Positions 29,865-45,355 of a stretch of 64,000 bases of DNA are shown piece by piece. Source of the stretch: Hyphomicrobiales bacterium (GTDB lineage: Bacteria > Pseudomonadota > Alphaproteobacteria > Rhizobiales > Rhizobiaceae); NCBI GenBank assembly GCA_900473685.1, contig UCNE01000005.1:62001-126000 (forward strand), in the 5' to 3' direction. Within the stretch, counting starts at the first letter, position 1. The number at the start of each line of letters is the position of its first letter. The translations under genes were made by a program, and so were the position numbers. The notes beneath the pieces were generated by a model. It did not search any database. It had not been told where the DNA came from and saw nothing but the letters and a program-made list of their open reading frames with translations.

Positions 29865-30509
29865 TCACCTGTTCGCATACAACGCCTTGGCAATTACGAG
29901 ATCGGTCGATGTGTCAATATCGATGGACCTGTCTGCCGGCATTAAATAGGGAACGGCTTCAAACCACCATTGCCTGCCCGACCGTGCATAGTCTGCGCTG
30001 AACACGTAAATGGCCCCGTTTGGAGTAACGTACTCGGCATCCTGCCGACGGGCGGCAAAATCGAAAGCCGGTGCCAGGCTGTTTCCGGCCTTTGCGAACA
30101 CCCAAGGTTTTGCTTCAGTAACTGATACCACAGTCTTTCCTGACTCGCGGTGCATTTCGACGCAAATACGAATGTCTTCTGCGGTGCGGAGCGGTGACGT
30201 TGGTTGAAGCACAACGACGGTATCTGCCGGCAAGTTGTCAAGCGCATGAAGAACCGCATCCATTGTCGTCGCCTCGTCGGTGCAGAGATGAGCAGGACGA
30301 AGCCACGGCACTTTCGCCCCGCTGGCGGCCGCTATGTCTGCAATTTGTTGACTATCCGTCGATACAAGGACTTTATCAAAGCAAAGGCTGTCAAGCGCGG
30401 CCGCTATTGTGTAGTTTATCAGCGGCTTCCCGTGAAAATCTATAATGTTTTTTCCTGGTAGGCCCTTAGACCCCCCCCGTGCTGGGATAAAGGCGATAGT
30501 TTTCGTCAC
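29865..30509 (-). CDS. legF: CMP-nonulosonate (legionaminate-type) cytidylyltransferase
   Basis: A 214-residue NeuA-type enzyme that activates a nonulosonic acid with CTP to the CMP-sugar. The nucleotide loop IPARGGSKGLPGKN (about 8-21), VSTDSQQIADIA, LQPTSPLRT and RSIDIDTSTDLVIAK are all family hallmarks. The start is GTG, preceded by GAGGGATCAATT. Specificity for Leg, Neu5Ac or Pse cannot be read from the sequence; presence of LegB, LegC, LegG and LegI homologues upstream supports legionaminic acid or a derivative. Confidence 0.85.
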   Translation of the reverse strand: MTKTIAFIPARGGSKGLPGKNIIDFHGKPLINYTIAAALDSLCFDKVLVSTDSQQIADIAAASGAKVPWLRPAHLCTDEATTMDAVLHALDNLPADTVVVLQPTSPLRTAEDIRICVEMHRESGKTVVSVTEAKPWVFAKAGNSLAPAFDFAARRQDAEYVTPNGAIYVFSADYARSGRQWWFEAVPYLMPADRSIDIDTSTDLVIAKALYANR

Positions 30510-30651: not shown

Positions 30652-31467
30652 CTACAGCCGTTCCTCGCGGAGCATCCTAGACCCCGTGAATAAGCTAAGT
30701 CCGAAAAAGATCAAGATGATTACGGTTTTGACAACGAACATTTTATCGAGGCCAATGGCTCCGTACTCTGGATAAATGGCGCTCCTAAACCACATGATCA
30801 CATGAACAAGTGGATTCCACATCATGTAATCGTAGATGGGATGTGGCATCGAATCCGGCACAAGGATAACCCCGGAAACCATGAAGAGCGGTCGGTTGAC
30901 CATGTTGAAAATTTGTTCGTACAACGGGAAGGCGCCAAACAGCGCAATATTGGCCATGCCGAGACCTAGCCCCATCAACGATGCCAAGGTGGACGCTTGG
31001 ATGGCTGTCCACAAATCCAAGTCGCCGATATGACGTATCTCGGTTGTGCAGATCGCAAGAACAACAATTGTGACAGCGATCGAGGTCATCAATTGAAGAA
31101 TGTATCTGGCAGTCACCGCGTCAATTGGAGAAACGATAGGGTAAGAAAAAAGCTGTTTGTTGGCCTTTACGGTTGCGGCGACATAGCTCGTCATAGCTTG
31201 ATAAAACGCGAACGGCAAATAACCGGACGCGAAAAATAACGCAAAGTCGGTTCCCAGCGCGGGCACACGTGCGAGGATTGAAAAAAGGGCTGTCATTGTC
31301 ATCACATGCGCAAGCGGGTCCGCGATAGCCCATATGTAACCACCGGGCTTGCTGCCAAACCGCGCCTCCATCTCACGAATAACCAGCGCCGAGGTCACAC
31401 GAAAATGCTGCCTAAGGAAATACATGCGGAACCCCATAACCCGGATACTTAATCTTGGCAATTCCAC
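30652..31467 (-). CDS. kpsM: Polysaccharide ABC exporter permease, KpsM/RkpT-like
   Basis: An inner-membrane ABC-2 type permease of about 260-271 residues with six hydrophobic segments. Family features are LVIREMEARFGSKPGGYIWAI near the N-terminus, ASGYLPFAFYQ and PLMWNPLVHVI-like residues (YMMWNPLVHVIMWFRSAIYP). The exact start is uncertain (GTG 31467 or ATG 31425). It should export the finished chain across the inner membrane with a KpsT-type ATPase, but no such ATPase, nor KpsE/KpsD-like partners, are encoded in this window. Confidence 0.88.
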   Translation of the reverse strand: MELPRLSIRVMGFRMYFLRQHFRVTSALVIREMEARFGSKPGGYIWAIADPLAHVMTMTALFSILARVPALGTDFALFFASGYLPFAFYQAMTSYVAATVKANKQLFSYPIVSPIDAVTARYILQLMTSIAVTIVVLAICTTEIRHIGDLDLWTAIQASTLASLMGLGLGMANIALFGAFPLYEQIFNMVNRPLFMVSGVILVPDSMPHPIYDYMMWNPLVHVIMWFRSAIYPEYGAIGLDKMFVVKTVIILIFFGLSLFTGSRMLREERL

Positions 31468-31518: not shown

Positions 31519-32469
31519 CTAACAATCGCCGATTGCTTTCACGTATGCATCGGCCATCAGGCGATGGCCGGCTGCAGAAAGGTGCATGCCATCGCTACCT
31601 AAAGCCTCAGAAGTCCCGTGCTCCCAGCAAAGCCGGTCGATGTCTATTAGATGGCAGTTTAACGATTTTGCCAGATCGTAGATCACCATGTTGTAACGTG
31701 TGAAGTTCCACGCCATTTGGGGCGTACTGGCGCCGAATTTAATTGGAGGCAGGACAATGGTTGCGAAGCTGACGGAGCGAGCGCCTTTTGATAAAGCCAA
31801 AGTAGCTGCTTCTTCGAGTCTTTCACGAAATAATAGCAATGAAGTATAGGTATGATCGAAGTCACTATTGATGATTGCGCTTCGATACACTTGCGAGAAT
31901 CGGAGAATTTTTTGCCGTAGGTCTGGCAACAAAGTACCTAGTGCGATCCGCTGTTTTTCTTGAAACATGCGAACCGCGCAATCGTTGAGGCCAACATGGA
32001 TCAGAAGGTCTTCACGATCGCACGCCACCCGCGTGGAAACAGCGTCTACAACGTACTCCGAGGTTGCGTAGCGTCTGCAAAGTGGACGAACTGAGGCCGA
32101 ACCTCGCGACTGGAAGTATGCTAGAATAAGACCGGAATATGTTGTCTCAAACTTTGTAGCCTCTCCATCTCCGGTTCTCGGTAGGCCAAGAGAATCGCTG
32201 ATGAGCACCAACTTGCGCTCGGGAGCAGATGAAGAAATCTTCAGCGCAGCTTTCTCAAAAGAGACTGCTTCGCGGTCTAAATTTCCTCGCTCTTTGTCAG
32301 TCGCGTTGCTAACCCTGACCGGATCGTAGTCAGATAGCAAACGCCGCACATGCTTGAACTGTTCTACACCTTCCTGGAGGCTCTTCCGGGACAAAACGTG
32401 GGCCAAATCGATCTGCCTTTCAATTTCGACCACGCTCACGTCACCTTGCTGACGTACTCCGCCATTCAC
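31519..32469 (-). CDS. SGNH/GDSL-type hydrolase
   Basis: About 316 residues from a GTG start that follows AGGAGGAGAATAC; a longer ORF would place this ribosome site inside the gene. Block I reads VLISDSLGLPR (Ser nucleophile), block III HVGLNDCA (Gly and Asn), block V SDGMHLSAAGH (catalytic Asp and His). The N-terminal 90 residues are extra and unassigned. No signal peptide is visible, so it probably acts in the cytoplasm, for instance removing or transferring acyl groups on a sugar precursor. Its presence in the polysaccharide operon is the only hint to substrate. Confidence 0.75.
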   Translation of the reverse strand: MNGGVRQQGDVSVVEIERQIDLAHVLSRKSLQEGVEQFKHVRRLLSDYDPVRVSNATDKERGNLDREAVSFEKAALKISSSAPERKLVLISDSLGLPRTGDGEATKFETTYSGLILAYFQSRGSASVRPLCRRYATSEYVVDAVSTRVACDREDLLIHVGLNDCAVRMFQEKQRIALGTLLPDLRQKILRFSQVYRSAIINSDFDHTYTSLLLFRERLEEAATLALSKGARSVSFATIVLPPIKFGASTPQMAWNFTRYNMVIYDLAKSLNCHLIDIDRLCWEHGTSEALGSDGMHLSAAGHRLMADAYVKAIGDC

Positions 32470-32750
32470 TACGTATTCTCCTCCTAATAAGCAGGACATT
32501 GCCCCTAAAGTGCTTTCGATGCCCAGTCAGCATCATACGAGATGCAAGTCAATATCCGGAAACAGTCAAGGCAATGCACCGCTAAGCGATTAGCGGTGAC
32601 TGCAGGAGCAAGAAATCCCGCGCCCCGTTTGGCGAAAAAAGAATTGGATGCTTGATTTCTTCAGCAATTCCCGATGCCTCCCGGAGTACGTCACCAAAGC
32701 GATTGCGATGGAAATTTATCGTATCCGCAACCGATAGCATGCGCGATGCC

Positions 32751-33917
32751 TTAGTCCAGAGCAAGGACAGCGCTGCTCGGGATGCTGACCAGCCGTTGCT
32801 CGATTTCCCGGGCGACCGGCAGGGGCATGGAGGGACTCCCTTTATACATCGGTAGGTCACACATAAGCGTCCAGCAGGGACGCGTCATCAGACCTGCATC
32901 ATTCGTTGCAGTAAGGAAATCGTCACGATCCCTGGCCTCGTCGAGTATGACCGAGTTAAGCCAATAATTACTCTGCGTATCAGTCGGTTCGACGAAGAAA
33001 TATAGGCCTTCGACCGTCGCGAACGCATCCTGATAGCGCGCCGCCAAGCGTCGCTTGGCAGTGACGAAGGTGGGTAGCTGTTGCAATTGAGCACAGCCTA
33101 ACGCTGCATTGAGATTGGGCAGACGGTAGTTGTAGCCGAGTTCGTCGTGCCAAAAAGTCCAACGATGTGGCCGCTTGGCTGTTGTGGTCAGGTATTTCGC
33201 ACGATCACCCAGGTATTCGTCGTTCGTCAGGATGGCACCACCGCCGCCTGTCGTGATGATTTTGTTGCCGTTGAAGCTGGTAATACCGATCATGCCCCTG
33301 CCGCCAAGCGGGCGTCCATTGGATAAGCTACCAAGCGATTCCGCGGCATCCTCCACGACAGGGAGGCCCCATTTTTCCGTCACTTCGAGCAGTCGGTCGA
33401 TAGCCACTGGGTGCCCGAAGGTGTGCATCGGCACGACAGCTGCCAACCGGCGGCCCGTATTGCGGTTGCGTGGCCCCTGTTCGCCTGGTTCGGCGATCTG
33501 TGTAAGCCATGCGTCGAGCGCGTCCGGATCGAGTCCAAGCGTCTCCATAGAGCTGTCGACGAAATGGGGAATGGCACCGCAATAGGCAACGGCATTTGCA
33601 GTCGCGGCGAACGTCAGCGCCGGTACAAGGACTTCGTCTCCAGGTTTCACCCCCGCAAGCATCAGGGCGATGTGCAGGGCTGCAGTACCGTTGACAGCCG
33701 CAATCGCACGCCGAACCCCGAAAGCCTCTGCCAGCTCTTTCTCAAAACGATCGACGTAGGCGCCGACCGATGAGACCCAGCCAGTATCCAGGCAGTCCTT
33801 GACATATTCCCATTCCAAGCCGGCAAAGCGCGGTTCATGCAGTACAATCGATTTGCCATCAGGCGCCGCAGCCTCGCGTAGAGTTTGCACGGCGTGTGTG
33901 ATATCCAGTTTTGCCAT
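32751..33917 (-). CDS. legC: LegC-type sugar-nucleotide aminotransferase (DegT/DnrJ/EryC1 family)
   Basis: A 388-residue PLP enzyme that would aminate the C4 keto group made by LegB. The PLP lysine is K219 (SFNGNKIITTGGGG), preceded by VVEDAAESLGS (phosphate/pyridine-N Asp) and VPALTFAATANAVAYCGA. Sequence and its neighbour LegB fit the LegC subgroup. The start MAKLDITHAV lies 2 bases from the end of legB; the longer ORF upstream is an artefact overlapping legB. Confidence 0.9.
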   Translation of the reverse strand: MAKLDITHAVQTLREAAAPDGKSIVLHEPRFAGLEWEYVKDCLDTGWVSSVGAYVDRFEKELAEAFGVRRAIAAVNGTAALHIALMLAGVKPGDEVLVPALTFAATANAVAYCGAIPHFVDSSMETLGLDPDALDAWLTQIAEPGEQGPRNRNTGRRLAAVVPMHTFGHPVAIDRLLEVTEKWGLPVVEDAAESLGSLSNGRPLGGRGMIGITSFNGNKIITTGGGGAILTNDEYLGDRAKYLTTTAKRPHRWTFWHDELGYNYRLPNLNAALGCAQLQQLPTFVTAKRRLAARYQDAFATVEGLYFFVEPTDTQSNYWLNSVILDEARDRDDFLTATNDAGLMTRPCWTLMCDLPMYKGSPSMPLPVAREIEQRLVSIPSSAVLALD

Positions 33918-33919
33918 TT

Positions 33920-34933
33920 TCAGATACCGTAGGTTTCGGCTTTGTACAGCGCCAGGTTGCTTGGATCGCTGAACCATTCGATGGTTTCGCGAATGCCACG
34001 GGCGAAACCCTCGTGACCAGAATAGCCTGGTTTCCAATCGGTGAGCCGCTTGGCTTTGTCGATGCCCGCCCAAAGTCGATCGACTTCGCTTAATTCCGGG
34101 CGCTGCCTCTGCTCTTCAGAGACGATCTGGGCGTTTACGCCCATGATTTCGATGATGGTTTTGACGGCATCCTCGATCGAGACTTCAAAGCCGCTGCCAA
34201 AGTTGACCACTTCGCCCAGAACCTCGGGGCTTTCGGCCATCGCTTGGAACGCCTTGACAGTGTCCGCGACGTAAGTGAAATCCCGTGTCGGGCTGAGCTT
34301 GCCGAGGCGAACTTCCTGCTTGCCGGCCGCAAGCTGGGTGATGATGGTCGGCAGCACCGCGCGCGTTGACTGGCGTGGGCCAAAGGTGTTGAAGGGCCGG
34401 ATTACCGTCACCGGCGTGCCGAACGAACGATAGAACGACAGGGCCAGTTGATCAGCCCCGATCTTCGACGCCGAATAGGGAGACTGGCCAACCAGCGGGT
34501 GTTCTTCGGTGATCGGAACGAACTGGGCGGTGCCATAGACCTCGCTGGTCGAGGTGTGAACGACCCGTTCGGTTTCGAGCAGGCGCGCAGCCTGCAGCAC
34601 GTTCAGCGTGCCCTTGATGTTCGTATCGATATAGGTATCGGGCGAATGATAGGAGTAGGGGATCGCGATCAATGCAGCCAGGTGCAGCACGACATCGCAA
34701 CCGCGCATGGCCGTCGCAACCCCGTTTGGATCGCGAATGTCGCCGCTAAACACCTCGAACGAATTCTTGACTTCGGGAGAAACGCGGTCAAGCCAGCCCC
34801 AGGTGCCGAAGCTGTTGTAGAGGGAGAAAGCCCGTACTTTCAGGCCTTGGCGCACGAGGTGCTCGACCAAGTGCGAGCCAATAAAGCCATCGGCGCCAGT
34901 CACAAGAATGGTCTTTCCTGACAAGTTGGTCAC
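33920..34933 (-). CDS. legB: LegB-type NAD-dependent nucleotide-sugar 4,6-dehydratase
   Basis: A 337-residue extended SDR. The Rossmann loop is TGADGFIGSH (12-21), the active site has TSTSEVYG (126-134 region) and the Y153-x-x-x-K157 pair (SPYSASK). RPFNTFGPRQSTRAV and RDFTYVADT complete the 4,6-dehydratase pattern. In Campylobacter LegB acts on GDP-GlcNAc, starting the GDP route to legionaminic acid; the PtmE-like enzyme at 45-46 kb fits that route. It is coupled by an ATGA overlap to the oxidoreductase gene upstream. Confidence 0.9.
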   Translation of the reverse strand: MTNLSGKTILVTGADGFIGSHLVEHLVRQGLKVRAFSLYNSFGTWGWLDRVSPEVKNSFEVFSGDIRDPNGVATAMRGCDVVLHLAALIAIPYSYHSPDTYIDTNIKGTLNVLQAARLLETERVVHTSTSEVYGTAQFVPITEEHPLVGQSPYSASKIGADQLALSFYRSFGTPVTVIRPFNTFGPRQSTRAVLPTIITQLAAGKQEVRLGKLSPTRDFTYVADTVKAFQAMAESPEVLGEVVNFGSGFEVSIEDAVKTIIEIMGVNAQIVSEEQRQRPELSEVDRLWAGIDKAKRLTDWKPGYSGHEGFARGIRETIEWFSDPSNLALYKAETYGI

Positions 34934-35919
34934 GACCGGTTTTCTCCTTCGAAGTTCGAGCGGTTGCCGTCTCGGATGACGGTATAGTTCTTGAAAGCCT
35001 CTGCCTGAGCCGAGAGGCCAACCAGGCGGAGATCGGCATCACCTGACAAGAACGCCTCGGTTTGCCGGTAGAGGCCGGGCTTGAATTCTTTGTCGAGGGT
35101 GTCGTCTATGGCTACCGGTTCCAGCGCAAAACTCTGCTGGTTCTGACGGAACAACTGTTCCATGGGCTGCAGGACAAGGCGGCTCTTCGCCGTCATGACC
35201 TCGACACCCCAGCGCCCCGGCGCGAGCCAGTTGGAATGGTAGGAAAAATCAGCCCCGGTGTCGGTCGTGCCGCAACCGGTGAAGATGGCGCCGGCGGGGT
35301 GCCAGCCTAGGCCTCCACGGCTTTGAGCGACGATCGTCTTCGGATGGCCGCCGAGGAAGAATGCCAGGTCGATCACGTGGGTTGAATTGCCGAAAAGCCA
35401 GCCCTCAAGCTCGGCCGGGTCTTTGTCGAGTGCTTCGATCCGGGTGCGTGCCTCGGTGAAGTCGAACTTGACCGACAGCACGCCGCCATCGGCGTCGATG
35501 ATCTTGCGGGCAGCCTCGACCGATGCATAGAAACGACGGTTGTAGGCGACATACACTTCAGCCCCGGCGTTTCTCGCCACGATGTCCAGCTTTTTGGCAT
35601 CGGCTTGGTTGAGAGCGACCGGTTTTTCCACCAGCAACCGACGCACGCCAGCCTCGATCAACTGCTCAGCGACTTCGGCAAGATTTGTGGCACTGACGGC
35701 GACGATCGCGGTTTCGGGTACGGCATCGAACCGGGAAAGCTGCTCACGCAACGGGCCGTGGCCCGTTTCGATGCTCCATTCTCTGGCGAAAGCCTCGGCT
35801 CGTTCCGTACCGCGTCCAGCGGCCAGGAACGGTTGCCCAAGCGCTTTCAGCACCTTGGCGTAGGCAGCCGACATTGCACCGGTGCCGACAAGGAGCAGGG
35901 GTGTTAGCTGATCGGGCAA
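34930..35919 (-). CDS. Gfo/Idh/MocA-family oxidoreductase (first)
   Basis: A 329-residue NAD(P)-dependent oxidoreductase. A TTG start after GGAGGACGTCCC fits best; longer versions would run into the preceding gene. It has the Rossmann segment LLLVGTGAMSAAYAKVL, the family Lys-Pro motif LLVEKPVALN, and YNRRFYASVEAARKII. It overlaps the end of the second Gfo/Idh gene by 16 bases. Such enzymes oxidise sugar-nucleotides or free sugars at C3 or C2; the substrate here is not known. It may make a second sugar of the repeat unit or modify the nonulosonate. Confidence 0.85.
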   Translation of the reverse strand: MPDQLTPLLLVGTGAMSAAYAKVLKALGQPFLAAGRGTERAEAFAREWSIETGHGPLREQLSRFDAVPETAIVAVSATNLAEVAEQLIEAGVRRLLVEKPVALNQADAKKLDIVARNAGAEVYVAYNRRFYASVEAARKIIDADGGVLSVKFDFTEARTRIEALDKDPAELEGWLFGNSTHVIDLAFFLGGHPKTIVAQSRGGLGWHPAGAIFTGCGTTDTGADFSYHSNWLAPGRWGVEVMTAKSRLVLQPMEQLFRQNQQSFALEPVAIDDTLDKEFKPGLYRQTEAFLSGDADLRLVGLSAQAEAFKNYTVIRDGNRSNFEGENRS

Positions 35920-36857
35920 GGGACGTCCTCCGAATTGGAAAGGTTCAGTCTTCGACGGAAGGCATCGAGGAACAGTACATGCTGTGCCGATGACTGCTCG
36001 TAGGGTGTCAGGCGGCATCCCTTGCCATCGATGATTTCGGTATAAAGATATGGCATGCCGCTGACGAACAGCGTTTCGAATGTCTGTTCGGTCTCTTCTC
36101 CGGCGGCATTGCGGTAGACGAGCTTTTTGGCTCCTTCCTCGACGCGCCAGCTTTGTCCATCACCAAAGAAGGTGATCGAAACCGGCTCGCCGGGCGCACG
36201 GTGTTGGGTGATCGCGATGGTGCCGCCGCCCGCCAGATTGCCGCGCAACGTACCAAACAGGTCGACACATCCTGGGATGCGAGCAGGCTGCGGACTGGGG
36301 TCCAGGCCGGCTTCGTCGAGTGCGACAACCCGGTCGCCCAGCACGTGTTCGGCCAGGTCAAGGAAATGTATAGCATTGGAACCGAGGTTCCATCCGGCCC
36401 CCTTGACTTCCATCGACAGACCGTTCTGCGTGGCCAGGAGGTCGCGCAGCCGGTCATAGGCGGGAAAGCCTCGACGACCGCAGTTGACATAAGCGGGGAT
36501 GCTGCGGTCCGTCAGGATCTCACCGACAGCGTCGAGATCGGCGCGCGTGGTGAACAGGACCTTCTCGAAGATGACGGCTTTCGGCGAGCAGCGAGAAAGC
36601 ATGTTTTCGAAGGCCGTACGGCGATGTGCCGCCGAGGTGGCGATGATCACCAAATCGGCAGTGTCTGGTACCTGATCCATATCGGCAAGCACTGTCGACC
36701 CGTTTGCAAAACTAGCAACGAGCGCCTCGGCCTGGGCCCGCGCCTCTGCGCCGGGCTCGATGCCGATGACGCGCATTGGAACTCCGGTAGCGGCGAGCGC
36801 CTCGATGTGTCGACGGCCAATATTGCCGCAGCCAACGACCATAATTGTTGGAATCAT
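35904..36857 (-). CDS. Gfo/Idh/MocA-family oxidoreductase (second)
   Basis: A 317-residue oxidoreductase with the Rossmann motif VVGCGNIGRRHIEAL (8-22). The usual EKP motif is replaced by VIFEKVLFTT, so the conserved Pro is lost while Lys remains. NCGRRGFPAYDRLRDLL replaces the typical Y-N-R-R-F segment. It overlaps the GT29-like gene by four bases. It may work with the first Gfo/Idh protein; the two are only distantly alike. Substrate unknown. Confidence 0.82.
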   Translation of the reverse strand: MIPTIMVVGCGNIGRRHIEALAATGVPMRVIGIEPGAEARAQAEALVASFANGSTVLADMDQVPDTADLVIIATSAAHRRTAFENMLSRCSPKAVIFEKVLFTTRADLDAVGEILTDRSIPAYVNCGRRGFPAYDRLRDLLATQNGLSMEVKGAGWNLGSNAIHFLDLAEHVLGDRVVALDEAGLDPSPQPARIPGCVDLFGTLRGNLAGGGTIAITQHRAPGEPVSITFFGDGQSWRVEEGAKKLVYRNAAGEETEQTFETLFVSGMPYLYTEIIDGKGCRLTPYEQSSAQHVLFLDAFRRRLNLSNSEDVPCPIS

Positions 36858-38077
36858 GCGGATATGACCTCACTAATCAATGAATGGAAGAAAATTTGCT
36901 CGGCCTGCCAATTGTGGCGGCTAGGCCAGGATCCCGTATGGCGCTTACCATAATAATGCGACACCGCGGAAGTGTTGCGGTCCAGCGAATAGCCGAAAAC
37001 CTGTCTCGGTGACAACTTTTCTCCAATCTCGCTCTGTGCCCAGGCAAGGCCAACCAAGCCGGCGCTCGGCGAGGCATCCAGTGCCGCGAACATCCGTTCG
37101 TATAGTGACGTGGGCACCAGTTCAATGGCCCGGTCTTGATGCATGTAGGGTTCGAGAAGCTGCAGACCGTTTGAAAACCGGTTCCTGATGTTGCAGCCGG
37201 TCAGCGCCATGAGGATATTGGGCGGCGTTTCTCTCATGGGAATGTGCGTGAAATCGGTCGGACGGAACCAAATATCGGTTCGCTGCCCCTGGTCATCCGC
37301 CGCCGCTGCAGCGTGATTGTTGAAGCGGATCACCAGCTGGTGCGAATCGATGATGCTGCCGAGACCCCGCGCCTCAAGCGACGGGCCATTTGCGACGACC
37401 GCTACGTTGCCGATGGATTGCTTGACTAACTGCGTGAAGCAGCCTTCGAAGCGGGCCAGATGGCTGGCGACTGCGCGTGCACGCTCGGCCTGCGGAAGAA
37501 CAAGCGTGCCACTATCCGCTGCGGTCTCTAGGATCAGATTGAGATAACCCATTGAAGACAGTGCCGACGGCTTGCTTCGGCCAACCCGGACAAGAAGGTC
37601 GAATGCTTCCCTATGATAACCGGCATCGTTGGCTATCGCGGCGGCTCTCAGCAGGACGCGTGCCGATGTCTCCCCTTCGCGGACGAGGCGCGGAAAGCAT
37701 TCCATCGCCTCACCAGCGCCTTTGCGCTCCCATAGCAGGTTGACAAGATAGACGAGCGCCTTCTGCGCCAACGCCGGCGGCCCGTCAGACACGATTGTTC
37801 GCAGCAGCGGCAGCGCCTCCGCCAAGGGTAACAGCCCAAAACGCGAAAGGCCCGCCACCTGCATCATCAATTCGGGATCGTTCGGCGTGGACGTGAGTGC
37901 ATGCCGCAGCGCGAGCGCCGCTTCTTCGAACTCACCCTGCTCATAGAGCCGCAGGTATTTCTTACGTTCCTGCCGACCGGGCGCACCTTCCATCCACCAG
38001 CGAACGGTTTGACCGATCTTATGCAATCCATCTTCCAGACCAAGTCGGCCGAGAATATGTGGGTAAGTAGGAAACAT
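36854..38077 (-). CDS. GT29-like (sialyltransferase-type) glycosyltransferase with helical-repeat N-terminus
   Basis: A 407-residue two-part protein. Residues 35-215 are short helical pairs of TPR type (for example YLRLYEQGEFEEAALALRHA, then NDPELMMQVAGLSRFG). Residues 224-253 (NVAVVANGPSLEARG, SIIDSHQLVIRFNNH) closely resemble the sialylmotif L of family GT29, which binds CMP-sugar. RTDIWFRPT follows as in that family, and HNWQAEQIFF (from H388) resembles the downstream His motif. In a locus making a CMP-nonulosonate, it is the best candidate for the transferase that adds it. No signal peptide or TM segment is seen, so it should act in the cytoplasm. Confidence 0.72.
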   Translation of the reverse strand: MFPTYPHILGRLGLEDGLHKIGQTVRWWMEGAPGRQERKKYLRLYEQGEFEEAALALRHALTSTPNDPELMMQVAGLSRFGLLPLAEALPLLRTIVSDGPPALAQKALVYLVNLLWERKGAGEAMECFPRLVREGETSARVLLRAAAIANDAGYHREAFDLLVRVGRSKPSALSSMGYLNLILETAADSGTLVLPQAERARAVASHLARFEGCFTQLVKQSIGNVAVVANGPSLEARGLGSIIDSHQLVIRFNNHAAAAADDQGQRTDIWFRPTDFTHIPMRETPPNILMALTGCNIRNRFSNGLQLLEPYMHQDRAIELVPTSLYERMFAALDASPSAGLVGLAWAQSEIGEKLSPRQVFGYSLDRNTSAVSHYYGKRHTGSWPSRHNWQAEQIFFHSLISEVISA

Positions 38078-38223
38078 CTGGTTAGGCTATCCTGTTGCCG
38101 TCGCCATCGCCGAAATATCAGCTATTTCCGGCGCTGCGATATTGCACAGTGACTTAACGGATGCATGGTTGAGTAGCAAGACTTGGCACTTGCTGAAAGG
38201 AACATGCTGTCACCGTGTCTGCG

Positions 38224-38907
38224 TCAAAACCTACCACGCAGCAACATGAAGGCTTCGGCCGCCCGAGTACCGGCTGCGGCGCCGCGCGTCATGGCCAAGG
38301 CACGAAGCGCTTCCTCGCTGCGCGGAAACGGAAATTCGCCGATTTCATCTCCGAACATTGCCGTGATCCTCAGTTTTTCTTCAAGCTGTTCGCTGATGTC
38401 TATGAAGATGTTGGGATTGAAGACGTCGCTGAGGAACAACCCGGCGTCCGTCTCGGACAGCGTTTCGTAGACGAGGGTCCAGCGAACGGAAGGATAGCGG
38501 AACCATTTGGTGCACGCAGTTGCTGCAGCGTGCACGACGTGGTGATCGGAATGGGCATCCCCGCGATGGGGGATCAGGATCATTTCCGGCTGGATCTCTG
38601 TAACCACCTTGCCTATGCCACCAATAACGTCGCCGAGAGGAAGGGTTTCGAGTTTGGCCGAGGGTAGATTCAAACGATGAACCGCGGCGAAGCGATAGGC
38701 TTTGGCGACCTCATCGATTTCGGTTTCACGACGCATCACCTTTTCGGAAGGCCAGCCCTGCTCGGTTGTGATGCCGGTAACAATCAGCCAGTGGATCGGC
38801 CTTCCAGCCGCCTGCGCGCGCAGCAACAGTCCGCCGGCGCCGAGCGTCTCGTCGTCAGGATGAGGGGCTATGACCAGAATCGGGCCTTTTCCACTTTCCA
38901 GCAGCAT
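38224..38907 (-). CDS. PIG-L/LmbE-family deacetylase
   Basis: A 227-residue zinc-dependent N-deacetylase. The metal/catalytic motif APHPDDE occupies 14-20 and the second metal His lies in PHRGDAHSDHHVVHAA. Family members remove N-acetyl groups from GlcNAc-type sugars or conjugates. Its gene overlaps the legG stop by one base (TAATG), tying it to nonulosonate precursor metabolism. It could free an amine of the sugar for another acyl group, added by the GNAT protein encoded nearby; that is inference. Confidence 0.88.
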   Translation of the reverse strand: MLLESGKGPILVIAPHPDDETLGAGGLLLRAQAAGRPIHWLIVTGITTEQGWPSEKVMRRETEIDEVAKAYRFAAVHRLNLPSAKLETLPLGDVIGGIGKVVTEIQPEMILIPHRGDAHSDHHVVHAAATACTKWFRYPSVRWTLVYETLSETDAGLFLSDVFNPNIFIDISEQLEEKLRITAMFGDEIGEFPFPRSEEALRALAMTRGAAAGTRAAEAFMLLRGRF

Positions 38908-40076
38908 TATCGTACTCCCTCAACCCATTTCTTATCGAGCAGATGTTTCCCGAGCTCAACATTGCACAAGACCTCAGCTATGCGTTGCCCAGCCTTGCCG
39001 TCGCCATAGGGGGTCCGTTTTTTTGCGACCAGCGTACGAAAGCTCTCGTCCGTCGTCGCTCTGGTAATCGCTGCGGCGATTTCCTGCGAATCGTAATCCG
39101 TGAAAATCACATTGTCGCCGTGTTCCCGGCCTCTTTGGCGTATCCCGATATTGACCACCGGCAAGCCCATGCTGGGGGCTTCCAAGATTCCTGCAGAGGA
39201 ATTTCCGACCATCACACGCGCGTGACGGAGCATGTTGACGAAGGCCTTTCGTTCCAGAAACGTAAAAGCCTTGGCTTTCGGATAGCGCGCGATCAGTTCG
39301 TCGATTTCAAGGCTGATCGCTTTGTTGCCGGGATCGGTATTCGGGGCCATCACGGCAATGTTCAATCCGCTCGTTTCAAGCACGCGGGTGATCGACGCCA
39401 TATGCGCTCTGGCTTCAGAAAAATCGGTGATCGTCGGATGGTAGAGCAGGACCGCATAGGGTTCTCCATTCCACTCGACACCGAGCGCGGCTTCGACTTC
39501 GGTTCGCGACATGTTCGGCGTTGCGTGAATCCGATCGAGGCCCGATGCGCCGGTAACGTGAATGCGCCAAGGTTCTTCTCCGAGTTCGCGCAGTCGGCTG
39601 GCGCTGAGTTCGGTGGTTGCCATGTGGAGATGCGACATTTTGGAGACGGCGTGGCGGACGAGGTTGTCAACATTGCCGTCGTCGGCGTGATCCCCGCCGC
39701 CGACATGCACGACTGGAATGCGATGATAGATGGCAGCTAGCGCACCGGTCATAACCTCTTCCCGATCACCCATCACGACGAGGAAATCGGGTCTTTCGCG
39801 GGCGAAAAGATCAGTGAGACCCGCAAGCTGAAGGCCCATTCCCTTGACACGTCCACCGAGACCATCGGAGGCAAGAAGAGAGTCAATCCGAGCGGCGATG
39901 CGATAACCGTCAGCTTCAATTTGGCGAATGGAATGCCCATGTAGGCCAGTCAAATGCGCACCGGTAACGATGACACCTTCACTCAGGCCTGGCTGTTCGC
40001 GCACAGCTGCTATGATAGGTGCGAGAATATCGTATTCGGATCGAATCCCGGTCAGGAAGTGAACTGATCTTGTCAT
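38907..40076 (-). CDS. legG: Hydrolysing UDP/GDP-sugar 2-epimerase (LegG/NeuC family)
   Basis: A 389-residue NeuC-type enzyme that releases the nucleotide and inverts C2, giving the free 6-deoxy-mannose-type sugar for LegI. Hallmarks: FLTGIRSEYDILAPII at the N-terminus, VMGDREEVMTGALAA, VHVGGGDHADDGNVDNLVRHAVSKMSHLH and VGNSSAGILEAPSMGLPVVNIG. The start MTRSVHFLTG is 12 bases after the GNAT gene's stop. The longer ORF upstream overlaps that gene and lacks support. Confidence 0.9.
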   Translation of the reverse strand: MTRSVHFLTGIRSEYDILAPIIAAVREQPGLSEGVIVTGAHLTGLHGHSIRQIEADGYRIAARIDSLLASDGLGGRVKGMGLQLAGLTDLFARERPDFLVVMGDREEVMTGALAAIYHRIPVVHVGGGDHADDGNVDNLVRHAVSKMSHLHMATTELSASRLRELGEEPWRIHVTGASGLDRIHATPNMSRTEVEAALGVEWNGEPYAVLLYHPTITDFSEARAHMASITRVLETSGLNIAVMAPNTDPGNKAISLEIDELIARYPKAKAFTFLERKAFVNMLRHARVMVGNSSAGILEAPSMGLPVVNIGIRQRGREHGDNVIFTDYDSQEIAAAITRATTDESFRTLVAKKRTPYGDGKAGQRIAEVLCNVELGKHLLDKKWVEGVR

Positions 40077-40087
40077 TTTTCTTTCGC

Positions 40088-41038
40088 TCAGTAGAGATCG
40101 GAGTCTAGCATGGAAAGCCGCCATAGGCGTGCATCGGTCAAATCGGCTTGCATGGGGGCAAAGGTTCGTCCGCCGAAATAGGTGACGGGCGCGGAGGCCT
40201 TGAAGCCGGCCATTTCGAGAGCGACGCGATGATCGTCATGGGGCAGGCACCACGTGGAAATCTTGGTGCGGCCGAGAGCCGCAGCGTTTGCTATAATGGT
40301 ATTTATCAAGGCCCGCGCTGACGCTATTCCGCTGCAGCGTAGTTCAACGAGGTCAAGCATTTCCGCGCCGTAGGGCTTGGTCAGCGCGTAGCCTGCGATC
40401 TCGTCACCTTCCACCACTACAAAGCGGGTATAGGTATTCTCAGGGTTGCGGTCGATGCGCCAACTTAGAATGTTCGCATCGCGATGTCCCGAAATGGGAA
40501 GATTGGACGCGATATTGGTGAAGAAGCGTCCAAACCGTTTATCAATTTGCAACGCCGTTGTCACTGCAGGGTCCGCCTCCGGAACCGACTGGAGACTGCG
40601 GACGTCGAGTGTCAACGTTGCGACATCACAAAAATCATCCCATCCCACCTTATTTCTGCGCAGGGCATGGATTGCTGCGTTGGGAAACCCATAAACTGCA
40701 TTCCGGCCCCTTAAAGGGAGAGTTTCATACAATGCTTCCGCAGTTCGCTCGAACAGCTTCTGCCCTCTCCAGTCGGGATGGGTCATTGTTGCGACAGACA
40801 AACACGCTGGCTCAAGGACGCCACCAATATTGAGTGGGGCTTGGCTCGCTGCATAGTGTCCGACAAGTGTTTCCTCGTCGAAAGCCAGCATGATCATTGG
40901 ATCGGCAGATGGATGATCAAGGAACCGCCAGCGCCAAAAATTAAGGCTCAACGGCCGTCCGAATACCTGCGTGAAGAGCGTCGTTATTGCGGCCTCGTCT
41001 CCAGGCTTGTAGGGTCGAAAATAGATCACCGGCCTCAC
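40088..41038 (-). CDS. GNAT-family acyltransferase
   Basis: A 316-residue protein starting at a GTG that overlaps the stop of the NeuD-like gene. FRPYKPGDEAAITTLFTQVFG at the start and MTHPDWRGQKLFERTAEALYE (acetyl-CoA-binding loop of motif A) mark a GNAT domain. A second domain-like half (FVVVEGDEIAGYALTK, then GIASARALINTI) suggests a tandem GNAT arrangement. Length and the FWRWRFLDHPSA segment recall acyltransferases in sugar-modification loci. It may act as the LegH N-acetyltransferase or add a different acyl group; sequence cannot decide. Confidence 0.75.
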   Translation of the reverse strand: MRPVIYFRPYKPGDEAAITTLFTQVFGRPLSLNFWRWRFLDHPSADPMIMLAFDEETLVGHYAASQAPLNIGGVLEPACLSVATMTHPDWRGQKLFERTAEALYETLPLRGRNAVYGFPNAAIHALRRNKVGWDDFCDVATLTLDVRSLQSVPEADPAVTTALQIDKRFGRFFTNIASNLPISGHRDANILSWRIDRNPENTYTRFVVVEGDEIAGYALTKPYGAEMLDLVELRCSGIASARALINTIIANAAALGRTKISTWCLPHDDHRVALEMAGFKASAPVTYFGGRTFAPMQADLTDARLWRLSMLDSDLY

Positions 41039-41682
41039 TCCATCGCAGGAAATTGGGACAGGCGCCGCGTAGCCTTGAGATAGGAGCTGTCGGGCAAGTC
41101 TGTGACGACCACTGTTCCGGCTCCGACAAAGGCATTGCGTCCAATATGGATACTGGGCACGATGACGGCGCCCGCTCCGATAAAGGCATGCTCTCCGACA
41201 TGTACGTCGCCACAGAGGACTGCGCCGGGAGCGATCATTGTGCCTGCCCCGATCTGGCAGTCGTGGTCCAGCTGCGCTCCAGTATTGATGATAGCAGCGG
41301 GACCGACCACACAATCGGCCTGTATGATGGCACCCGCCATAACAACCGCTCCAGCTTCCACTTGGGCGGACGGGGAAACTACAGCAGCAGGGTGGATCAG
41401 CGATGGAACACGAGCGCCGGCGGCCGCCAGTCTAACGAACTCGCGCCATCGAATTTCGCCTTGGCCGATTGCGGGAAACATGTCGTTCTGCTCGATCCAA
41501 GAGGAATCCGCGCACAAATCGACTCCATCACCGAGTATCGGAGCGCCAAGATTTTCGGCGCCGCGCTGATCTGCGGGTGCCAGGAAACCGGTGATATGCC
41601 AGCCAACCGAGCGGGCAAGTTCGGCGATAACCTTGGCATGACCGCCTGCGCCCAAGATTATCAAACGGCCCGGATTAGTCAT
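41035..41682 (-). CDS. NeuD/PglD-like left-handed beta-helix acyltransferase
   Basis: A 215-residue protein: N-terminal PglD-type domain (RLIILGAGGHAKVIAELA, 6-23) and a hexapeptide-repeat beta-helix with the catalytic His in INTGAQLDHDCQIG. Relatives N-acetylate the 4-amino group of UDP-bacillosamine precursors (PglD) or O-acetylate sialic acid (NeuD). In this locus it could be the LegH step after LegC. It overlaps legI by four bases and the GNAT gene by four bases. Confidence 0.85.
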   Translation of the reverse strand: MTNPGRLIILGAGGHAKVIAELARSVGWHITGFLAPADQRGAENLGAPILGDGVDLCADSSWIEQNDMFPAIGQGEIRWREFVRLAAAGARVPSLIHPAAVVSPSAQVEAGAVVMAGAIIQADCVVGPAAIINTGAQLDHDCQIGAGTMIAPGAVLCGDVHVGEHAFIGAGAVIVPSIHIGRNAFVGAGTVVVTDLPDSSYLKATRRLSQFPAME

Positions 41683-42728
41683 GTTAGATCCTCGAGTGTA
41701 AGTAGGGTATTTGCAGCGACGGGCCGGCTCAAAACGCGGCCCCGGAGCAAGCTCTCCATGCGTGGGGGTAACCCCGTACCAGGTCGCAGCAAGATGAGAT
41801 CGTTTGCTGTTAATCGGTAGCCGGCAGCCAAGTCCCGGTTGACAGCGACGCTCCGCCGCCCGAGCTGCCGTGCTGAGGCCTCGCAAGGCTGGGGCGCTTT
41901 AATTGAGCTACCGAGCGCCTTTTCTACTCCTCGAATGCCAGCAACCATGGCTGCGAATTCCTGTGGCTCAAGCGAAGCTTTGTGATCAGGTCCCGGTAGA
42001 CTGCGATCTAGCGTAATATGTTTTTCGATTACGCTAGCGCCGAGCGCTACCGCCGCAATCGAAACAGCAATACCGTCAGAGTGATCAGAATACCCGACTG
42101 GCAACCCCATTATGCTGGAAAGCGTGGGAATGACCCGAAGATGAAGTTCATCCAAGGGTGCTGGATAACAACTCGTGCAGTGTAGGAGGGCAATATCCTC
42201 ACTCCCCGCCTTTCGAAGTGTGTCGACACCAAAAGCGACTTCTTCCATGTCGCACATGCCAGTCGACAAAATGACCGGCCGACCTTTCGCGCCCATATGA
42301 GAAAGATAGGACTCTGAAATGCAGTCAGGCGAGGGGACTTTAAAAGCCGGAACGCCAAGCCGGTCGAGCATGTCGATGCTTCCCAAATCAAAAGGCGAGG
42401 AGAGAAAGACTATACCCTCGGCGCGGCACTGTTCGAGAATGCGGAGGTGCGCTACTTCATCGAGCTCTAGTGCCGCCAACATGGCATGCTGGTCAGTCTG
42501 ATTCGTATTGGCTCTCTGGTATGCGGCTGTCGGGGTCGCACGAACAACTAACTGATCCGCGCGGAACGTTTGAAACTTCACCGCATCGGCACCGGCGGCT
42601 CGAGCGGCGCTTACGAGCCTAGCGGCCAATTCGGGGTCTCCATTGTGATTAACACCAACCTCGGCAATGATGAAACAGGGACTGTTTCCGCCGATTCTTC
42701 TATCGGCAATGGAAAATGTTTTCATCAT
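41679..42728 (-). CDS. legI: Legionaminate/N-acylneuraminate synthase (NeuB family)
   Basis: A 349-residue NeuB-type TIM barrel followed by a C-terminal SAF (antifreeze-like) domain, condensing the N-acyl sugar with phosphoenolpyruvate to the nonulosonate. Marks: FIIAEVGVNHNGDPELAARL, ADAVKFQTFRADQLV, FKVPSPDCISESYL, ILSTGMCDMEEV, LLHCTSCYPAP and VGYSDHSDGIAVSIAAVALGA. The SAF part starts around 280 (RRSVAVNRDLAAGYRL). The ATGA overlap with the 876-residue gene upstream couples synthesis to that protein. Confidence 0.92.
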   Translation of the reverse strand: MMKTFSIADRRIGGNSPCFIIAEVGVNHNGDPELAARLVSAARAAGADAVKFQTFRADQLVVRATPTAAYQRANTNQTDQHAMLAALELDEVAHLRILEQCRAEGIVFLSSPFDLGSIDMLDRLGVPAFKVPSPDCISESYLSHMGAKGRPVILSTGMCDMEEVAFGVDTLRKAGSEDIALLHCTSCYPAPLDELHLRVIPTLSSIMGLPVGYSDHSDGIAVSIAAVALGASVIEKHITLDRSLPGPDHKASLEPQEFAAMVAGIRGVEKALGSSIKAPQPCEASARQLGRRSVAVNRDLAAGYRLTANDLILLRPGTGLPPRMESLLRGRVLSRPVAANTLLTLEDLT

Positions 42729-45355
42729 ACAAGATACTCCCGGAATGGCGCGGTTACGAAAAGTGAGGACGGAAGTTCATCGCGCGACCTGATACCTTGG
42801 GGCCCTTTTGCAATGATATCTTCAATGATGGAGGTCAGGCGATCAAAGGTGGAATTGTCAAGGAGGTCCGCATTGTTTTGAATAAATTTTGCCGGCCATG
42901 TCGCGGCCTTCGGGCCTGCCGACAATGCTTCCGAGACTATCCTCGCAATATCGTCGCTACTTGTGGAAAGGGGAACTCCAAGTATGTCATGCCACGGCAC
43001 TGGATATTGAACGTCATTCGTACTAACGATGGCGACATTACGCTCCAATATTGCTGCCTCAATTGCGGTAACACTATAGCAAGTTAAAACAACTTCACTT
43101 GCAATGAGCAGGTCTTTGATATCGACGTCCGCTACGTAGCAGAGATGACCGGCATTTTCCTCGGCGATGATTTGCCGGTAGCGCTCAACGTGACCTGGCC
43201 CCTCTTCCGGATGTCTTTTCAGTATTACGCGCGCAGGCTTGTCTAATATCTTGAGCGCGCGGATAATCATACGCCAAACAGCTAAAATATGCTCCGCGGG
43301 CATTGGTTGGGTGGGGAAAGCAATAATTGGTGGGTCGCCTCGGTGTAGGCCTATGCGCTTGCGGGCCTCCGCACGCGAGCCTAGGGGGCTGTATCCAATA
43401 GGTCGCATAATTCGCGGCGAGCCAAAAGTATAGCAACGATCATATGAAATTCCAAAATAGCGACCATATTCTTCTGCAAAATAGTCAGAATAGACGGCGG
43501 CATAGTCGCTGAATACTGTGCCGTAGCGGCAATAGGCGGCATTGAGGCAGTGTGGCTCAACGGCGATTGATGGGATGCCATGGGCACGTGCTATTGTCGC
43601 GAATTGCGCACTGCGAGGTGAGCGGATGGGCGATATTGCGATCGCAGAGTAGTTTTCAACTTCGAGATGCGCGGCAATTGCGCGAGCATTGCCCAAAACG
43701 TTCAGGACCGCAGCAGGGAGGCCTTCAGTTAGCACGGAATCGAGCACGGTTTTAAAGCATATATCTTCGCTATGCGTTGCGAATAGCTTCCTCGTGGCAT
43801 CAGCCACCGCTAACAGGAATACATCGGAGAATTCCTTAGTGGCGGCTCTACCCGGTGTTGTCGCCGAGACTTTAACTAAGGTTGGACTCCCGTTTTTCCG
43901 TGATTCAGCTAAATAGGGATCTTTTTGGGCATGTTTGATGGCTTTCTGCAGATTGGCGGGGTTGCCCTGTGGGGTCAAAATGTCCACATCAAACTTCGCG
44001 TTTAGATGTGTCGCCAACTGTACAGAGGTAGCTGAGTAGGCGCGTGAATCATCTGCAACAAAGGCGATGCTTTTGCGAACGTTTGAGCGGTTCCTTGCGG
44101 TGCGTTTCGCGTAAGAGGAAGACAAATACGCTTTGACCATTGCTGGAGGTTCGGAAGGTCGCCCGCTTTCGAACAACTCTTCCAATGCGGCTATATCTCC
44201 GAGAATTGGTTCTGCACTTCCGACAACCGCGCGCCGCTGCATTTCTGCGATACGGGAAGCGAATTTAATAGCTGTCTTGATCTTCTGCGTCCGGCAACAT
44301 CCCTTAATGCGCGGATTCTGCCAGAGTTCAGGGCCGGAAAAAAAGAAACGAAACAGTTCGAAGCTTTCTCCGAAAGACACGATCACACTATCGAACGAAG
44401 AATCCAGGACGGCGCGATATACGGCCTCAACGCGGAGTGCTTTGAAAAAAAGCCTGTCACTAATTTCGAGCGCAAGATCCTTGTCGAAATCTGGCACGCT
44501 AACAATAAATTCTTCCATCCAGGGAGTTTGTTCAATGAAGCTTTTAGTTAGGGCCATGGCGGCCTCTAGCGTTTTCCGATGGATATTAAAGTATTGCTGT
44601 TGAAAGCGATCTATGCGCGAACGTCCATGCTCAATGGAAATCTCTCGACCGGGCAAGACCGCTTGAATCGCCTCAAGATCTATCTTGCCATACAAATCCC
44701 CGTACTGAAGGAGCGTGATTTTCTCCGCCCCCATCGCAAGCCCCTTGATTGCGGAAGGTGAAAGACGATCGTCCATCACTATCAGGCGATTTTTACACGG
44801 TGCCGGCTGCATCTCGGCTGCTGAGAATGTGCCAATAGGCGAGATAGGCTCGCTAAGAGGCCTTGGGGAAAGCGAGAAAACCAGCGAGTTCCAGTCCACA
44901 AGGGAAGCTGGGCGTATATTGTCTCTGTAGTAAGTAACTACTTGTAGCGCCAACTCGATGTCGCCGCGCTCGAGAAGAGCGGAAACGAGGGCGACGGACG
45001 TCTCGATCTTCTTTTTGGCTGTAGCAGAGATCGCAGGAATCGCGGCGGTCAAGGTCTCAGTATCTGGGCCGAGTGTTCCTGTCGCTACGAGGGTAATGCC
45101 ATAGTCCAAGGCTCTTGGCCTCGCCGAGAGGTAATCAACTACAAAACTATTCGCGGCCTTTTGTCCAAAACGAGCGAAAATCTGCTTGTGAATCCATAGT
45201 ATTCTCGCTTGGGTGCTTCTTACAATCGGAGAGTAGATAAAGTATTTATGGGCTACCCTTGGTCCTAGCAATCGTAACAAGAGATACAGTGTGATATGAG
45301 AAAAATTCCGCTCAATTTTCCCAATATAATTTATAATTTCTCGCATATAACGCAT
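42725..45355 (-). CDS. Large (876-residue) glycosyltransferase-like protein of unknown specificity
   Basis: A two-part protein. The C-terminal half (about 440-860) has a GT-B-like layout: SIAFVADDSRAYSATSVQLA (a start of a Rossmann half), IAVEPHCLNAAY, VYSDYFAEEYGRYFG, PIIAFPTQPMPAEHILAV, RVILKRHPEEG and a nucleotide-site-like VLTCYSVTAIEAAILERNVAIVS. This recalls KpsS and CDP-glycerol-type glycosyltransferases. The N-terminal half has a helical section and a second Rossmann-like stretch (KNRLIVMDDRLSPSAIKGLA). No membrane segments are evident. It lies between ptmE-like and legI genes, overlapping legI. A likely polymerising or nonulosonate-adding enzyme; I cannot assign the sugar. Confidence 0.6.
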   Translation of the reverse strand: MRYMREIINYIGKIERNFSHITLYLLLRLLGPRVAHKYFIYSPIVRSTQARILWIHKQIFARFGQKAANSFVVDYLSARPRALDYGITLVATGTLGPDTETLTAAIPAISATAKKKIETSVALVSALLERGDIELALQVVTYYRDNIRPASLVDWNSLVFSLSPRPLSEPISPIGTFSAAEMQPAPCKNRLIVMDDRLSPSAIKGLAMGAEKITLLQYGDLYGKIDLEAIQAVLPGREISIEHGRSRIDRFQQQYFNIHRKTLEAAMALTKSFIEQTPWMEEFIVSVPDFDKDLALEISDRLFFKALRVEAVYRAVLDSSFDSVIVSFGESFELFRFFFSGPELWQNPRIKGCCRTQKIKTAIKFASRIAEMQRRAVVGSAEPILGDIAALEELFESGRPSEPPAMVKAYLSSSYAKRTARNRSNVRKSIAFVADDSRAYSATSVQLATHLNAKFDVDILTPQGNPANLQKAIKHAQKDPYLAESRKNGSPTLVKVSATTPGRAATKEFSDVFLLAVADATRKLFATHSEDICFKTVLDSVLTEGLPAAVLNVLGNARAIAAHLEVENYSAIAISPIRSPRSAQFATIARAHGIPSIAVEPHCLNAAYCRYGTVFSDYAAVYSDYFAEEYGRYFGISYDRCYTFGSPRIMRPIGYSPLGSRAEARKRIGLHRGDPPIIAFPTQPMPAEHILAVWRMIIRALKILDKPARVILKRHPEEGPGHVERYRQIIAEENAGHLCYVADVDIKDLLIASEVVLTCYSVTAIEAAILERNVAIVSTNDVQYPVPWHDILGVPLSTSSDDIARIVSEALSAGPKAATWPAKFIQNNADLLDNSTFDRLTSIIEDIIAKGPQGIRSRDELPSSLFVTAPFREYLV

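Follow-up and report, generated by a model that had tools for sequence, protein, structure and literature searches.

The window analyzed here is a stretch of 64,000 nucleotides from a Hyphomicrobiales bacterium of the family Rhizobiaceae (GCA_900473685.1, contig UCNE01000005.1, positions 62,001 to 126,000). One gene on its minus strand (window positions 36854..38077) encodes a protein, called here the TPR-GT29 protein, in which an N-terminal half of helical pairs resembling tetratricopeptide repeats (TPR) is followed by a glycosyltransferase domain of family GT29 with the four sialylmotifs L, S, III and VS. This gene is part of a capsule locus with a complete legionaminate-type nonulosonate pathway. 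In the reading we favor, at a probability of about 0.55, the protein is a cytosolic, inverting GT29 enzyme that adds the nonulosonate of its locus, activated with cytidine monophosphate (CMP) and likely a legionaminic acid derivative, to a capsular polysaccharide exported by an ABC transporter, or to the linker of that polysaccharide. The argument for this protein as the one that moves the nonulosonate is the linkage of its gene to pathway genes throughout its clade. What is new is the tie of a GT29 clade to a legionaminate-type capsule locus, together with the TPR architecture.

Bacterial enzymes that move nonulosonates are poorly known. A passage of a 2019 review states that before the Tannerella enzymes no nonulosonate transferase had experimental support, and that no predictions of legionaminate transferases were then available (PMC6388019); since then, Campylobacter Maf4 has been put forward as a putative legionaminyl transferase (PMC9298399). 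A preliminary description of this DNA spoke of a new type of nonulosonate transferase, which went too far: bacterial GT29-like genes were described in 2018, 19 of 23 of them alphaproteobacterial (PMC5811610), a GT29 protein is on record for E. coli K6 (PMC13171606), and plasmid records label such genes "glycosyltransferase family 29 protein". Among the papers listed by searches of one open-access library, none was seen to assay a bacterial GT29 for activity, which is not proof. If the proposed function holds, a GT29 enzyme native to CMP-legionaminic acid would add a candidate from another family. The bacterial group concerned includes plant symbionts, and nonulosonates can be part of their capsules. 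Such an enzyme would also be relevant to the proposed origin of eukaryotic sialyltransferases from proteobacteria (PMC5811610), and a GT29 enzyme without the disulphide between motifs L and S may be easily expressed.

Domain make-up, sialylmotifs and predicted fold

The open reading frame (ORF) consists of a helical-repeat N-terminal half and a C-terminal GT29 domain (Table 1). The Pfam model Glyco_transf_29 (PF00777) matches it with an E value of 1.2e-9 and a score of 38.4 bits, above the cut-off of 23; the best stretch is residues 217-270. Motif L reads GNVAVVANGPSL...VIRFNN, motif S runs from SPSAGL (336-341) through GYSL (362-365), and motif VS is HNWQAE, with His388 the first residue of the HxxxxE pattern. 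In 13 bacterial and viral GT29 rows, V228, N230, G240, I243, D244, V249, R251, N253, G264, G340, G362 and E393 are invariant; these 12 positions also hold in 20 rows that partly overlap the set of 13, and H388 is nearly invariant in both alignments. The preliminary description had placed motif L at residues 224-253 and a His motif at 388, behind a fusion of about 180 residues of TPR-like helices. All of this is borne out, the limits of motif L moving to 223-254, and motifs S and III, which it had not named, are present as well.

The AlphaFold model, made with the 20-row alignment, has a predicted local distance difference test (pLDDT) score of 81.8 and a predicted template modeling (pTM) score of 0.79. 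The TPR-like half consists of paired helices between residues 15 and 187, and the catalytic half covers residues 215-407. In a VIA-align comparison the top 14 rows are all GT29 sialyltransferases (Z 12.8-10.6, 194-219 residues aligned), and the first row outside the family has Z 9.9. Among them are ST6GalNAc2 (Z 12.8, root-mean-square deviation or rmsd 4.2, 201 residues aligned), ST6Gal1 with CMP-sialic acid (Z 12.4, rmsd 3.5), ST3Gal1 (Z 12.2, rmsd 4.0) and ST8SiaIII (Z 11.8, rmsd 3.6), the last three with 200 residues aligned. By these 14 rows the catalytic half has the sialyltransferase (modified GT-A) fold, and the predicted fold of residues 215-407 is that of GT29. TPR proteins match residues ~30-190 with Z of at most 9.9, a middling score for helical repeats. 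A Foldseek search with the whole model ranks SPY and OGT first and ST6GalNAc2 twelfth (E 1.5e-3). The listed SPY and OGT matches have TM-scores on the query of ~0.2-0.33 and rmsd of ~12-18, and reflect mainly the TPR part. In a viral structure library the top row is a DUF4214 protein, and viral proteins named GT29 stand at ranks 4 and 6.

Sequence comparison leads to the same family. With a profile of the bacterial relatives, all eight matches among PDB sequences at E <= 0.01 are GT29 sialyltransferases (E 9e-20 to 1e-12), and the best of them is aligned across motifs L, S, III and VS. A phmmer search of the PDB with the single sequence gives ST6Gal1 no better than E 0.18 and 0.23, after a fragment of an unrelated receptor (0.17), so that a profile is required to reach the GT29 structures. 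The family named in the preliminary description was thus recovered both by the Pfam profile search and by structure prediction; neither a fold other than GT29 nor a lack of conservation of the Asn and His positions was seen. Among the Pfam matches of the protein up to E 1 there is no GT42 model and no Maf model (for Maf no further search was made). Neither family appears in the structure rows listed, and the 50 rows contain no chain of the GT42 enzyme CstII; this excludes nothing.

Animal Golgi sialyltransferases have an N-terminal membrane anchor and a Cys pair that joins motifs L and S, the latter not being general to GT29. The TPR-GT29 protein has the four sialylmotifs and the fold in common with mammalian ST3Gal1, ST6Gal1, ST6GalNAc2 and ST8SiaIII, at 14-20% identity in structural alignments, but differs from them in its TPR fusion and in the absence of both a visible hydrophobic anchor and the disulphide. 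Its only Cys residues are at 127, 213 and 295; none lies in motif L or S, hence no disulphide can link the two. The peak 19-residue Kyte-Doolittle mean is 1.38, which is consistent with a cytosolic location. Pfam TPR matches at residues 43-74 are below threshold (TPR_14, 21.4 against 23.5). The two halves are conserved to a similar degree, the TPR half slightly less: 67% against 72% in the comparison with an Arenimonas relative (locus L019), and 36% against 44% with a relative from Sinorhizobium mexicanum (locus L008).

A legionaminate-type capsule locus and the distribution of bacterial GT29

The pathway and capsule genes around the GT29 gene are all on the minus strand (Table 1). The LegB, LegC and NeuC homologues score above their NCBIfam cut-offs, in support of the earlier expectation of a nonulosonate locus. 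Since NeuB and the CMP-synthetase fall below theirs, the term legionaminate-type is used on the strength of those three genes. The oxidoreductases, the deacetylase and the GNAT protein suggest a modified sugar. NeuB is the sole PF03102 match of the genome. CTP_transf_3 has three matches: the window gene, one on contig C27 that is presumably KdsB, and a weak one on C24 in an ORF read as GlmU. Capsule_synth also has three, in the window and as a pair on contig C6, where SIS/CBS and ABC_tran genes stand beside it; these C6 genes are read as KpsF, KpsC, KpsS and KpsT. With Kps-type export genes located elsewhere, the window locus looks like a strain-specific capsule region set apart from the export genes, an arrangement comparable to the two distinct regions rkp-1 and rkp-3 of Sinorhizobium (PMC4881576). 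The KpsC-like protein of the window matches two stretches of a capsule protein of E. coli (L010, 1315-3342) at 35% and 40%; the name KpsC is inferred.

Relatives of the TPR-GT29 protein at 86% identity occur in two genomes of the same genus (G012 and G013, taken to be those of L017 and L018 below). The gene order of the window is conserved in Rhizobiales AFS086343 (L017), in Rhizobium sp. RCAM05350 (L018, with frames broken in that assembly) and in a metagenome-assembled Arenimonas genome (L019), whose GT29 relative is 69% identical and for which transfer and a binning error are indistinguishable. Plasmid pEmeITTGR7c of S. mexicanum (L008/L097) has a relative at 40% and an equal gene set, to which it adds a KpsT-like and a second KpsC-like gene. 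The stop of the GT29 gene overlaps the start of the next gene by 4 bases in the window, L003 and L008, and the spacing is equal in L019. The KpsC-like gene is kept with GT29 in L008/L097, L017, L018 and L019, and the KpsM-like gene in L097 and L018. A further legionaminate-type locus holds a degraded GT29 relative (L014:9569-10389), with motif L in no listed open frame.

PF00777 has one match in the genome of the window and none in 14 control genomes, and it recovers bacterial relatives poorly (matches in 2 of 385 genomes of the class). An alignment profile found GT29-like proteins in 21 of 398 and 17 of 249 genomes; rows near E 1e-3 are weak, and several are short proteins of ~200-280 residues. 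One such protein, of 218 residues, is in the genome of the window itself (L071:9404-10060, minus strand; G000:C20, match 78404-78553). It shows VGNGP, ID..DLVIRFN, PSSG and HPFAAE and has no Pfam match up to E 0.01; further genomes of the family encode comparable short proteins (L088, L090, L094, L096). When contigs were searched with an alignment pattern, 61 stretches of genome contigs yielded five confirmed cases, and 20 stretches of viral contigs yielded one (L022); the TPR-GT29 sequence alone matched no viral contig. Only two narrow patterns were used in these searches, which therefore under-sample the spread of the family. PHROGs returned nothing up to E 0.01 for GT29 or for ORF876, the 876-residue protein of the locus. 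A tblastn search of 72,556 plasmid records with the TPR-GT29 protein found relatives in four.

A survey of context took 49 bacterial and viral GT29-like rows, some loci giving two, and left out the degraded L014 and the broken L018. Its labels denote marker homologues within 10.5 kb, so that L080 and L082, at contig ends, are possibly mislabelled. A NeuB or nonulosonate-type CMP-synthetase homologue is near 11 of the 49 rows, and a KdsB-type gene near three. On a quick tree of 43 rows, which had no control set of other transferases and from which no enrichment over background is claimed, all four members of the window clade (window, L008, L017, L019) carry the nonulosonate label, with a support of 99 in the Shimodaira-Hasegawa-like approximate likelihood ratio test (SH-aLRT). 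The nonulosonate labels cluster on this tree (5 changes against a shuffled mean of 9.1, with 1 of 500 shuffles as low), a clustering driven by close relatives. Labels for 3-deoxy-D-manno-oct-2-ulosonic acid (Kdo) do not cluster (3 changes against a mean of 3.0).

Architectures and settings vary among these relatives. The GT29 protein of L080 has a TPR match above the cut-off and NeuB and CMP-synthetase homologues as neighbors; in L076 and L086 the TPR matches are below it, and L086 is sub-threshold for GT29 too. The L010 gene is present in 7 of 5426 E. coli genomes. In Alkalihalobacillus (L020:8447-10948) a protein of 833 residues fuses a KpsC-like module to GT29, beside KdsB-like and another KpsC-like gene. 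On the viral contig L022 (2738-4816), two GT29 genes have homologues of CMP-synthetase, NeuB and NeuC as neighbors; the N-terminal part of one GT29 product reads, by eye, like a sulfotransferase.

Proposed function and competing readings

For the TPR-GT29 protein, inverting chemistry, a CMP donor and the roles of the residues named below are carried over from what is known of family GT29. On this model, it would use the CMP-activated nonulosonate that its own locus supplies, most likely one derived from legionaminic acid, and add it in alpha linkage to the capsular polysaccharide or its linker, and the modified polysaccharide would then leave by a Kps/Rkp-type ABC transporter. CMP-beta-nonulosonate would be held by two residues of motif L, Asn230 and Asn253, together with the PSxG loop in motif S, and His388 of motif VS would serve as the general base that deprotonates the acceptor, giving the alpha-linked product. 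The TPR half may dock the enzyme on the growing polymer, its linker or partner enzymes. The donor, the capsule acceptor and the TPR role are here read from context only. As regards the donor, porcine ST3Gal1, a GT29 enzyme, is among the sialyltransferases that accept CMP-Leg5Ac7Ac (PMC6388019); as regards the acceptor, rhizobial capsules contain nonulosonates, that of S. fredii HH103 being an alpha-linked nonulosonate homopolymer (PMC4881576). The earlier suggestion of a candidate transferase for the CMP-sugar of its locus is supported by gene context, fold and motif conservation, which, like domain make-up and synteny, are direct results of the computation.

Known systems resemble the TPR-GT29 protein in part. 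The bacterial proteins of Petit et al. (2018) have motifs L, S, III and VS, as here; according to that paper its trees gave no function prediction in bacteria, whereas the present clade is tied to a legionaminate-type locus (PMC5811610). The GT29-GT107 protein of E. coli K6 likewise places a GT29 domain in an ABC-transporter capsule locus, but with a GT107 fusion and a Kdo link in place of a TPR fusion and a legionaminate-type pathway (PMC13171606). For the TPR part, the nearest parallels are CpsD and Cps7C of Actinobacillus pleuropneumoniae, and FlmG. In the capsule polymerase CpsD the TPR domain is required for elongating the poly(glycerol-phosphate) linker, which is also that of Cps7C. Enzymes of the Cps7C type, the capsule transition transferases, join the Kdo glycolipid to the polymer; Cps7C (378 residues) has an N-terminal TPR region (1-190) and a C-terminal transferase domain, but its catalytic half has a nucleotidyltransferase fold, and CpsD has others (PMC11666461). 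A narrower proposal, tentative and rather doubtful as it stands, would make TPR-GT29 a transition transferase or co-polymerase dedicated to legionaminate. Its TPR half would hold the linker or the growing capsule, and together with the KpsC-like module or ORF876 it would build an acidic nonulosonate capsule. If true, this would give a bacterial GT29 whose native donor is a nonulosonate, and a counterpart, for nonulosonates, to the transition transferases that bear TPR.

Several observations weigh against assigning nonulosonate transfer to this protein. The model has pLDDT of ~50 or less at residues 1-30 and 368-382, the latter including motif III. With NeuB and the CMP-synthetase under their NCBIfam cut-offs, the exact sugar is unsettled, and the same genome has a second, short GT29-like protein elsewhere (E 5.7e-6). 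Neither a nonulosonate nor a Kdo activation gene is within 10.5 kb in 35 of the 49 survey rows. Among the 40 listed of 77 plasmid records with a NeuB relative, only that of S. mexicanum has a GT29 relative; on this count GT29 is not a general nonulosonate transferase. The plasmid records of S. meliloti Rm41 and NGR234 have NeuB relatives and, by tblastn, no GT29 relative; judged from such sequence matches, GT29 probably does not serve pseudaminate capsules. ORF876 and the KpsC-like gene are retained in the same relatives as GT29, so that synteny does not single out the latter. A (K/R)XHP motif is conserved in sialyltransferase families, GT29 included, and in retaining Kdo transferases, that is, in CMP-ulosonate transferases (PMC12887879). 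The TPR-GT29 protein is without any HP, and the motif is missing in 19 of the 20 alignment rows, its own included; ORF876, with KxHP in all four of its rows, and the KpsC-like protein, with KPHP, both carry it. The motif is not treated here as defining GT29.

Any of the three proteins could be the enzyme that carries the nonulosonate. ORF876 was considered as the main transferase and is kept as a rival or partner. It has no sequence relative in the PDB (best E 0.29), and the model of its C-terminal part is poor (pLDDT 67.4, pTM 0.53) and resembles GT-B enzymes as well as UDP-GlcNAc 2-epimerases in a general way, pointing to no particular donor. L017, L019 and S. mexicanum retain the ORF876 gene alongside that for GT29. 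The locus has two candidate transferases besides GT29 (28657-29682 and 42725-45355), and KdsB-type genes lie near GT29 in E. coli (L010), Alkalihalobacillus (L020) and L077. Family membership alone does not fix the donor of a bacterial GT29, which must be read from context, here a nonulosonate context. The same KdsB-type neighbors invite the reading, to our mind unlikely, that GT29 is a CMP-Kdo transferase adding alpha-Kdo to a capsule linker or to lipopolysaccharide (LPS), while ORF876 or the KpsC-like module moves the nonulosonate. The plant GT29 protein MGP2/RCKT1 is required for Kdo in rhamnogalacturonan II (PMC11288761), the K6 protein goes with a putative poly-Kdo capsule (PMC13171606), and the division of the (K/R)xHP motif among the three proteins fits this too. 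However, a role in Kdo transfer only would need no linkage to legionaminate-pathway genes, and GT29 is found among such genes in the window, in L008/L097, L017, L018 and L019, and as a degraded copy in L014, presumably a related locus.

The TPR half has further been set beside Caulobacter FlmG, in which an N-terminal TPR domain binds flagellin and a C-terminal transferase adds pseudaminic acid (PMC7591256). By analogy, the TPR half of TPR-GT29 would bind a protein such as flagellin and the GT29 half would put the nonulosonate on Ser or Thr, and the protein glycosyltransferases ranked first by Foldseek, SPY and OGT, are TPR-fused as well. We think this improbable: the FlmG transferase half is GT-B (PMC7591256) as opposed to the GT29 fold found here, the locus has capsule genes, and the SPY and OGT matches are the poor ones described above, mainly to the TPR part. 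The acceptor might instead be the LPS core or O-chain, alone or along with the capsule, as the capsule nonulosonate of HH103 is found in LPS too and rkp-3 mutants alter LPS (PMC4881576). The retention of the KpsC-like and KpsM-like genes with GT29 in the relatives named above speaks against this reading, which we regard as a poor prospect.

Features of the locus and its surroundings

Table 1. Features of the TPR-GT29 protein and of the surrounding locus, in window coordinates
Feature	Position	Strand	Basis
TPR-GT29 protein, 407 aa	36854..38077	-	ORF with ATG start; Pfam, AlphaFold, structure and profile comparisons
TPR-like helical region, residues 31-190	37508..37987	-	AlphaFold helices, TPR structure matches; Pfam TPR below cut-off
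GT29 catalytic domain, residues 215-407	36857..37435	-	Pfam, AlphaFold, structure and profile matches
Sialylmotif L, residues 223-254	37316..37411	-	Sequence, alignment, PDB profile
Sialylmotif S, residues 335-365	36983..37075	-	Sequence, alignment, PDB profile
Sialylmotif III (HYYG), residues 374-377	36947..36958	-	Sequence, PDB profile; low model confidence here
Sialylmotif VS (HxxxxE), residues 388-393	36899..36916	-	Sequence, alignment, PDB profile
Single-module KpsC-like Capsule_synth protein, candidate ulosonate transferase	28657..29682	-	PF05159, 124.5 bits vs 20; KPHP at residue 208
CMP-nonulosonate synthetase-like CTP_transf_3 protein	29865..30509	-	PF02348 above cut-off; best NCBIfam PseF, 147 bits vs 205.7 (below)
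KpsM-like capsule ABC permease	30652..31467	-	PF01061, 48.3 bits vs 26.9; NF050053, 98.1 vs 300 (below)
GDSL/SGNH protein, possible acyl modification	31519..32499	-	PF13472, 39.6 bits vs 32.9
LegC aminotransferase	32751..34073	-	TIGR04181, 519.2 bits vs 420
LegB 4,6-dehydratase	33920..34933	-	TIGR04180, 510.4 bits vs 475
Gfo/Idh/MocA oxidoreductase 1	34930..36018	-	PF01408 above cut-off
Gfo/Idh/MocA oxidoreductase 2	35904..36857	-	PF01408 above cut-off; start overlaps GT29 stop by 4 bases
PIG-L type deacetylase	38224..38907	-	PF02585, 81.1 bits vs 28.2
NeuC/LegG type hydrolysing 2-epimerase	38907..40124	-	TIGR03568, 370.6 bits vs 235.9
GNAT acetyltransferase	40088..41314	-	PF13527 above cut-off, residues 99-216; true start probably downstream of the one given
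NeuD/PglD-like hexapeptide acyltransferase, LegH candidate	41035..41682	-	PF17836 and PF00132 above cut-off
NeuB/LegI nonulosonate synthase	41679..42728	-	PF03102, 301.7 bits; NCBIfam NnaB, 388.0 vs 399.65 (below)
ORF876, 876 aa, C-terminal GT-B-like part, invariant KxHP; rival or partner transferase	42725..45355	-
CBS and nucleotidyltransferase protein, PtmE/LegX-like candidate (name inferred)	45469..46560	-	PF00483 and PF00571 above cut-off

The NeuD/PglD-like protein is 55% identical to its S. mexicanum homologue across 176 residues. Outside the locus, a GC-rich stretch of the window (14760-21668) holds an open frame of 2302 residues that has no Pfam match up to E 0.01, and positions 27643-28203 encode a DDE_3 transposase. 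The GC content is 0.50-0.55 at 28001-34000 and 42001-46000, against 0.57-0.60 at 34001-42000. From these shifts and the transposase, the region of the locus may be a mosaic of acquired pieces.

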